A stretch of 44,713 bases of DNA from Bacilli bacterium (GTDB taxonomy: Bacteria > Bacillota_I > Bacilli_A > RF39 > UBA660). The translations under genes were made by a program, and so were the position numbers. The notes beneath the pieces are model-generated. The model was given only the letters and a program-made list of their open reading frames with translations. It was not told where the DNA came from and did no database searches. Below are positions 31,542 through 31,981 of this stretch, one piece after another (positions within the stretch are counted from its first letter, which is position 1; each line of letters starts with the position of its first letter). The stretch lies in NCBI GenBank assembly GCA_017622175.1, contig JAGARQ010000041.1, forward strand, positions 1-44,713, read 5' to 3'.

Positions 31542-31567
31542 AAAAGCAGATTATTCATCTGCTTTTT
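31541..31567. terminator. Bidirectional terminator between the 31056 gene and ssb
   Basis: Stem AAAAAGCAGAT / ATCTGCTTTTT with a TATTC loop. The ssb stop lies in the loop and the plus-strand gene ends at its edge. Confidence 0.88.
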
Positions 31568-31892
31568 CTTCTGGTTTTTTATTTGATAAAAATGTTATTT
31601 TTTCAGCAATAATTTCCATTAAATATTCTGTCTTATCATCTTTTTCAACTGTTCTTGATTGTACTCTACCTTTTACTCCAACAATATCTCCTTTTTCACA
31701 ATATTCCTTAGTATTTTCCGCAATATTATCAAATGCAACACAATCAATAAAGTCTGTATCATAACCTCCTTCCATATTCTTAAAACTTCTTGGAATAGCC
31801 AAAGAAATAGTCGCTACCTTAACCCCCTTATCCGATTTATTAACAGTAATATTTCTAGTTAATCTTCCTACTAAAACTATTTGATTAAGTAT
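31551..31892 (-). CDS. ssbB: SsbB-like single-stranded DNA-binding protein with ATA start
   Basis: 113 residues if begun at ATA (31892-31890), exactly the length of B. subtilis SsbB. The OB fold reads LNQIVLVGRLTRNITV, VATISLAIPRSFKN, TDFIDCVAFDNIAEN, YCEKGDIVGVKGRVQSR and YLMEIIAEKITFLSNKK, and it ends PEEKADE without the DDDIPF tip of replicative SsbA, as in SsbB, which protects incoming DNA in competence. The initiator position that is Met in homologues is ATA here, 7 bases after a perfect AAAGGAGG; the only canonical in-frame start is a TTG 33 codons later, which would remove the first strands of the OB fold. A sequence error of one base is the alternative. Confidence 0.85.
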   Translation of the reverse strand: MLNQIVLVGRLTRNITVNKSDKGVKVATISLAIPRSFKNMEGGYDTDFIDCVAFDNIAENTKEYCEKGDIVGVKGRVQSRTVEKDDKTEYLMEIIAEKITFLSNKKPEEKADE

Positions 31893-31915
31893 ATTATCAC
31901 CTCCTTTCGAGAGGT

Positions 31916-31944
31916 ATAATACTTTAATAAAAAGACATAATCAA
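31916..31944 (-). promoter_or_regulatory. Promoter of ssbB
   Basis: Minus-strand TTGATT and TATTAT with a 17-base spacer; predicted start of transcription near 31909, giving a leader of about 16 bases to the ATA. Confidence 0.65.
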
Positions 31945-31981
31945 ATCACCAATTCTATAAATTAAAAATACTTTCAACCAC

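Follow-up and report, generated by a model that had tools for sequence, protein, structure and literature searches.

The ssbB gene carried in the window, the whole stretch of 44,713 nucleotides of a gut bacterium that was analysed, is very probably translated from an AUA codon, as a genuine near-cognate initiation that is held by strong Shine-Dalgarno (SD) pairing and is expected to be weak and IF3 sensitive. AUA as the ssbB start codon is well supported by comparative sequence reading, and this codon may tune competence. The phenomenon is wider than a preliminary description of this DNA had assumed: AUA, AUU, or AUC (AUH) initiators extend to a second competence gene, comEA, and recur across the family. 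The repeated move of ssbB and comEA to weak starts in related bacteria suggests that DNA uptake is kept low at the level of translation.

The ssbB gene and its initiation region

ssbB occupies positions 31551 to 31892 of the minus strand and encodes 113 residues including the initiator, with TAA (31551-31553) as the stop codon. The product contains the OB-fold SSB domain (Pfam PF00436, 84.6 bits with a cutoff of 26) and also passes the NCBIfam ssb model TIGR00621 (78.5 bits versus a cutoff of 53.95). The nearest solved structure is that of Bacillus subtilis SsbB (PDB 3vdy; E value of 1.1e-25). The C terminus is short, ends with KKPEEKADE, and is devoid of the SsbA acidic tip; a longer, SsbA-like SSB gene is located elsewhere in the same genome, G000 (G000:C2:39285, open frame of 169 residues). 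A terminator-like hairpin of AAAAGCAGAT and ATCTGCTTTT followed by a T run was read directly at 31542 to 31566 of the minus strand, where it overlaps the ssbB stop codon. Another terminator-like repeat is found between sufB and ssbB. ssbB looks monocistronic.

Besides ssbB, these genomes contain the competence genes for ComEC, ComEA, and a GspE/ComGA-like ATPase. The open frame of the ATPase in the related species G002 (G002:C2:426265-429597) is unusually long, with 1111 codons and a repetitive tail rich in asparagine and lysine, and no comGB-like frame follows it on the same strand.

Direct reading of the minus strand bears out the arrangement given in the preliminary description, which had placed the ssbB start at an ATA codon 7 nt behind an SD sequence and a promoter. 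The ATA codon (31890-31892, minus strand) is followed by CTT AAT CAA, and the frame continues as LNQIVLVGRLT. The 7-nt spacer TGATAAT (31893-31899, minus strand) separates GGAGG from AUA. The extended SD sequence AAAGGAGGTGAT spans 31896 to 31907 of the same strand, with the core AAAGGAGG at 31900 to 31907. Its match of 11 nt is the longest among the noncanonical candidates in a screen for an SD sequence plus an open frame, and the SD sequence AAAGGAGGUGAU could pair with most of the 3' end of the 16S rRNA. Close to the 5' side of the SD sequence lies a sigma-A-like promoter, comprised of a -35-like TTGATT (31939-31944, minus strand), 17 nt, and a -10-like TATTAT (31916-31921, minus strand) whose spacing and position are kept in relatives. 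Due to the proximity of this promoter-like element to the SD sequence, transcription is predicted to start immediately ahead of the SD sequence, and the ssbB leader is predicted to be very short, with ∼20 nt. TTGATT is part of a conserved ATTTG motif found 5' of ssbB across genera. This motif at the -35 position (window positions 31916-31949) occurs upstream of ssbB family-wide at a fixed distance from the -10 element and the SD sequence and differs from the element upstream of comEA.

In agreement with the earlier reading, no ATG, GTG, or TTG is found in frame between the upstream TGA stop codon and the ATA codon of ssbB, and on the downstream side, a canonical codon is not reached in frame until the TTG of codon 31 (31800-31802, minus strand). 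This TTG is not conserved and is implausible as a start; the first canonical in-frame codon is the ATG of codon 40 in G001 and the TTG of codon 11 in G002. ssbB therefore shows an AUH initiator with no canonical alternative, and its extended SD sequence lies at the proper distance, as in genes of the infC, pcnB, and ccpN type.

The genus of the genome carrying the window, g1, comprises three species, each with one genome: G000, G001 (JAFQCG, from goat cecum), and G002 (JAFQSD, from goat colon). All three share the ATA codon of ssbB together with its SD sequence and spacer. The SsbB proteins of G001 and G002 are 96% and 94% identical to that of G000. Within codons 2 to 30, G000 and G001 differ by 13 synonymous and no nonsynonymous changes, G000 and G002 differ by 12 and 1, and G001 and G002 differ by 10 and 1, respectively; such nearly exclusively synonymous changes are the mark of a translated ssbB N terminus. 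From the -10 element through codon 4, the three sequences do not differ, while divergence has set in farther upstream. Outside the genus, close relatives have ATG at the alignment position of the ATA codon, behind the same kind of SD sequence, and ATG is the start in most relatives' ssbB genes. The alignment of SsbB homologues from the first residue, as previously described, holds as well: residue 2, directly after ATA, pairs with the post-Met residue of B. subtilis SsbB in the 3vdy alignment, and the ATG-bearing relatives have their ATG at exactly that position.

These comparisons bear on two explanations that would do without AUA initiation. A sequence or assembly error concealing a true ATG, which had been considered from the outset, would fit a fragmented metagenome-type assembly of 66 contigs and the ATG found in most relatives of other genera, but its probability is negligible: ATA stands behind the same SD sequence and spacer in three separate assemblies that differ at many synonymous sites, and independent AUH starts of ssbB are found in other genera and in one other family. 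The preliminary description had named ATG-bearing relatives together with a mutation unique to this genome as the case against unusual initiation. Such relatives exist, but the ATA codon is not unique, and its conservation in the genus supports unusual initiation, as the comparison with related genomes proposed there was meant to reveal. It is also very improbable, if slightly less so, that ribosomes initiate at another site, either the TTG at 31802 or, through a frameshift, an upstream codon, with ATA as an internal Ile codon or part of the leader. TTG is a legal start codon, but here it is found without an SD sequence, is missing in G001 and G002, and would delete the first OB-fold strands, and the segment preceding it evolves as protein. 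Upstream, a TGA interrupts the frame, and the ATG of relatives lies exactly at the position of ATA behind the same SD sequence.

AUH starts in ssbB and comEA across the family

The family set contains 386 genomes, 249 of which have an ssb gene of the pattern start-LNQ...VG behind GGAG. A scan of the 386 genomes for start codons not ending in G yielded 14 matches, 13 of which are true. All 13 are AUH (ATA in 4, ATT in 7, and ATC in 2 genes, from six genera), and non-G-ending codons outside AUH are absent from these true matches. Genuine starts at which fMet-tRNA tolerates a third-position mismatch would show such a confinement to AUH. ATA is found in all three g1 species and in G017, and ATT is found in four species of g5, in G167, and in G278. 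The three genes of g103 start with ATC, ATC, and ATT, thus differing between species but always with AUH. Another family of the class also includes an ssbB gene with an ATC start (G532:C5:51461-51498; L121). The 14th match, in G124, reflects a misplaced reading of a TTG start. FNMLVLVG-type ATA matches (G398 and G089) and ATA-ATG matches were dropped because their ATA is followed by an ATG immediately or a few codons later.

Six switches between AUH and canonical starts are required on the SsbB tree, and at least five of them fall on well-supported branches (a minimum of five to six). The spacer after GGAGG measures 7 nt in 11 of the 13 AUH genes and 8 nt in the others, compared to a mode of 6 nt in the ATG ssbB genes of the family. 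A spacer of at least 7 nt goes with AUH in four to five of five independent tree pairs and never the reverse (P of 0.06 to 0.125, from few pairs). GGAGGTG occurs in 10 of 13 AUH ssbB genes versus 30 of 141 (P = 8e-5 without kinship correction). No independent pairs support this link once kinship is controlled; GGAGGTG was thus rejected as an independent correlate of AUH, and its association with AUH in ssbB is shared ancestry. GGAGGTG looks permissive, not acquired together with AUH.

comEA starts with GGAGGTGATTTC ATA ACA in all three g1 species (G000:C13:50186-50224, L280; L278; L279). The gene adjoins comEC on its upstream side, and its product contains HHH_3 and SLBB domains and scores above the cutoff of TIGR00426; this position and these family matches make the identification as ComEA certain. 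A family-wide search with a pattern for one ComEA N-terminal type, allowing any NTN start, recovered ∼42 genes. AUH is found in 17 of these, in seven genera, and ATG, GTG, or TTG is found in 25; other NTN codons do not occur among the ∼42 genes of this N-terminal type. ATA is used in three genes each of g1 and g77 and in g71; ATT is used in four genes of g90, two each of g153 and g103, and in G352; and ATC is used in G181. GGAGGTG precedes 17 of 17 AUH comEA genes compared to 12 of 24 parsed canonical ones (P = 0.0004, not corrected for kinship). The comEA tree needs eight changes of state, just two of which are forced by the best-supported branches, and both AUH and canonical starts occur within g103 and within g153. 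Several genera carry AUH in only one gene of the pair, ssbB in g5 and comEA in g77, g90, and g153, which indicates that the two genes are not tightly coregulated by AUH.

A conserved (T)TCGAATAATA element is found ∼15 to 25 nt upstream of the comEA SD sequence in several genera (L214, L217, L219, L216, L263 to L265, L270, L272, L286, and L287). The element is similar to the streptococcal ComX box TNCGAATA and may represent a site for a competence sigma factor.

Proposed initiation mechanism and possible selection or drift

AUH genes with a strong SD sequence are few in the genus. Open frames with a strong SD sequence over a noncanonical codon were screened in ∼2.2 Mb from three genomes, covering ∼1.27 Mb of G002 (∼85% of the genome), 0.89 Mb of G001 (∼60%), and, for G000, the window and individually selected loci; by its requirement for a strong SD sequence, the screen passes over AUH starts with weak ones. 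All five noncanonical matches with an SD match of at least 8 are AUH, namely, ssbB three times, comEA in G002, and a DUF2624-like gene in G001. Besides ssbB, the genus has few genes of this kind, namely, infC (AUC), the DUF2624-like gene (AUU), and comEA (AUA), and AUH as a general habit of these genomes was rejected. The DUF2624-like gene encodes 82 residues from an apparent ATT behind AGAGGTGAT (G001:C4:767774, minus strand; G002:C2:446708, plus strand). Two further candidates were not counted: the gene of a DUF3792-like membrane protein (G001:C4:760827, minus strand), which has ATT in G001 but ATG in G002, and a phage-type HTH_36 gene with an apparent ATA behind GGGGGTGATAGC (G002:C3:713424, plus strand), which has no relative in the compared DNA. 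A match in prfB (G002:C3:631285) fits a programmed frameshift and not an AUU start.

infC begins with ATC in g1 and with ATA in G017. The IF3 domain is intact (116.8 bits), as it is in all six genomes tested, and loss or damage of IF3 was rejected as a cause of the AUH starts. With an intact IF3 and infC itself at AUC, AUH codons are expected to be discriminated against. In the proposed mechanism, the long SD sequence at the 7-nt spacer would hold the 30S subunit over AUA, and fMet-tRNA (CAU) would initiate there with a third-position mismatch. IF3 is expected to reject most of these complexes, so that SsbB would be made at a small, IF3-dependent fraction of the AUG yield. The simplest account would be that ssbB and comEA are expressed at a low level from ordinary or induced mRNA. 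We infer a low yield of SsbB, its sensitivity to IF3, and a purpose in limiting the DNA-uptake machinery or coupling it to the condition of the translation apparatus. The original suggestion that AUA keeps a competence protein low because IF3 discriminates against it gains support from analogy with known systems and from the convergent AUH starts of comEA, the low yield itself being presumed.

How the AUH starts came to be kept can be read in several ways. Weak, IF3-sensitive AUH initiation in ssbB, comEA, or both might be a recurrent, selected control of competence in the family, with DNA uptake following the IF3-to-ribosome state, although this appears rather unlikely. Selection is favored by the retention of AUH across species, by the swaps among AUH codons in g103 without a return to AUG, and by the occurrence in two genes of one pathway. 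Permissive drift is favored by the uncoupling of ssbB and comEA and by the ancestral nature of the strong SD sequence. Under drift, which can be proposed tentatively, initiation would be carried by the extended SD sequence, leaving AUH nearly neutral in competence genes of weak expression, and no regulation would be selected. GGAGGTG predates AUH, as the sister genus (L035) and G006 combine it with ATG, and the loss of its link with AUH in ssbB after kinship control means that a strong SD sequence may merely permit drift to AUH. The frequent gain and possible loss of AUH in the trees point in the same direction. Against drift stand the retention of AUH across g1, g5 (a clade of four species), and g103 despite synonymous changes in up to 45% of codons, the invariance of the block from -10 to codon 4 in g1, and the very small number of AUH genes in the screen, two of which belong to one pathway.

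An additional layer could come from the inverted repeat TATTATACCTC...GAGGTGATAATA (31891-31922, minus strand), which covers the -10 element, the SD sequence, and the start and is predicted to form a hairpin in read-through transcripts (-11.7 kcal/mol; z of about -3.4 to -3.8; identical sequence in the three g1 species). Its 5' arm is the -10 element and would therefore be missing from the promoter's own transcript. A switch by transcript choice can be envisaged, with AUA as one layer, in which only the short mRNA from the gene's own promoter is translated since the -10/SD repeat would fold in longer read-through mRNA and mask the SD sequence. The strength of the predicted hairpin over the SD sequence and start in all three species and the terminator-like repeat between sufB and ssbB would suit such a switch, but it is improbable. 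The sister genus and several AUH genera lack the hairpin, whereas some ATG genes have it; this distribution indicates that it is independent of the AUH start. Similar hairpins are found in G027, L037, G107, and G384.

Comparison with known systems

To our knowledge, only a handful of natural AUH starts have been documented in bacteria. Gene finders accept only ATG, GTG, and TTG, and AUH-start genes are consequently cut short or lost; by these rules, ssbB would start at the nonconserved TTG and lose its first 30 codons. Recurrent AUH in two competence genes provides natural replicates in which the requirements of AUH initiation, such as SD length and 7-nt spacing, could be examined, along with whether IF3 discrimination is used to control a pathway beyond the synthesis of IF3 itself. 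In the searchable open-access literature, which largely leaves out subscription papers, no reports of AUH starts in ssbB or comEA were found. AUH starts with an extended SD sequence are already known from infC, pcnB, ccpN, cvfC1, and citZ; their repeated evolution in two competence genes is unusual and appears undescribed.

SsbB of B. subtilis (3vdy) resembles the protein described here in family, length, and start position and likewise is a short SSB alongside a longer SsbA-like one. The B. subtilis protein is ComK regulated. ssbB as found here differs in starting at AUA. The AUU, AUC, or AUA start of infC, encoding IF3, is autoregulated in Escherichia coli, Streptomyces, and Staphylococcus aureus. 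infC shares with ssbB an AUH initiator behind a strong SD sequence, which in these genomes is AUC (AUA in G017), but encodes the discriminating factor itself, which closes a feedback loop. Since ssbB and comEA function in DNA uptake, any effect of IF3 on them would be one-way.

Extended SD sequences accompany the AUA starts of infC, ccpN, and citZ and the AUU start of cvfC1 in S. aureus (PMC13009471). Reporters of ccpN, citZ, and cvfC1 reach ∼10% of the AUG level, and ccpN rises to as much as 30% in rich medium (PMC13009471). From established background and from the S. aureus and Streptomyces work (PMC13009471 and PMC5472188), AUH behind a long SD sequence initiates at roughly 10 to 30% of AUG under the control of IF3. 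ccpN, cvfC1, and citZ resemble ssbB and comEA in the conserved AUH, the extended start-proximal SD sequence, and the low-GC Gram-positive background. They are other genes, with starts measured by Ribo-Ret and reporters, whereas the starts of ssbB and comEA are deduced from sequence; in comparison to the S. aureus cases, the family of ssbB and comEA reached AUH many times. The AUU start of E. coli pcnB (Binns and Masters 2002, as cited in PMC13009471) is similar in that an inefficient start limits the amount of a nucleic-acid enzyme, and different in concerning a single gene outside competence. sigR of Streptomyces starts at GTC with AGGAGGTG and is repressed by IF3 (PMC5472188). It shares with ssbB a noncanonical start conserved in one genus but uses GUC instead of AUH and sets a sigma/anti-sigma ratio (PMC5472188).
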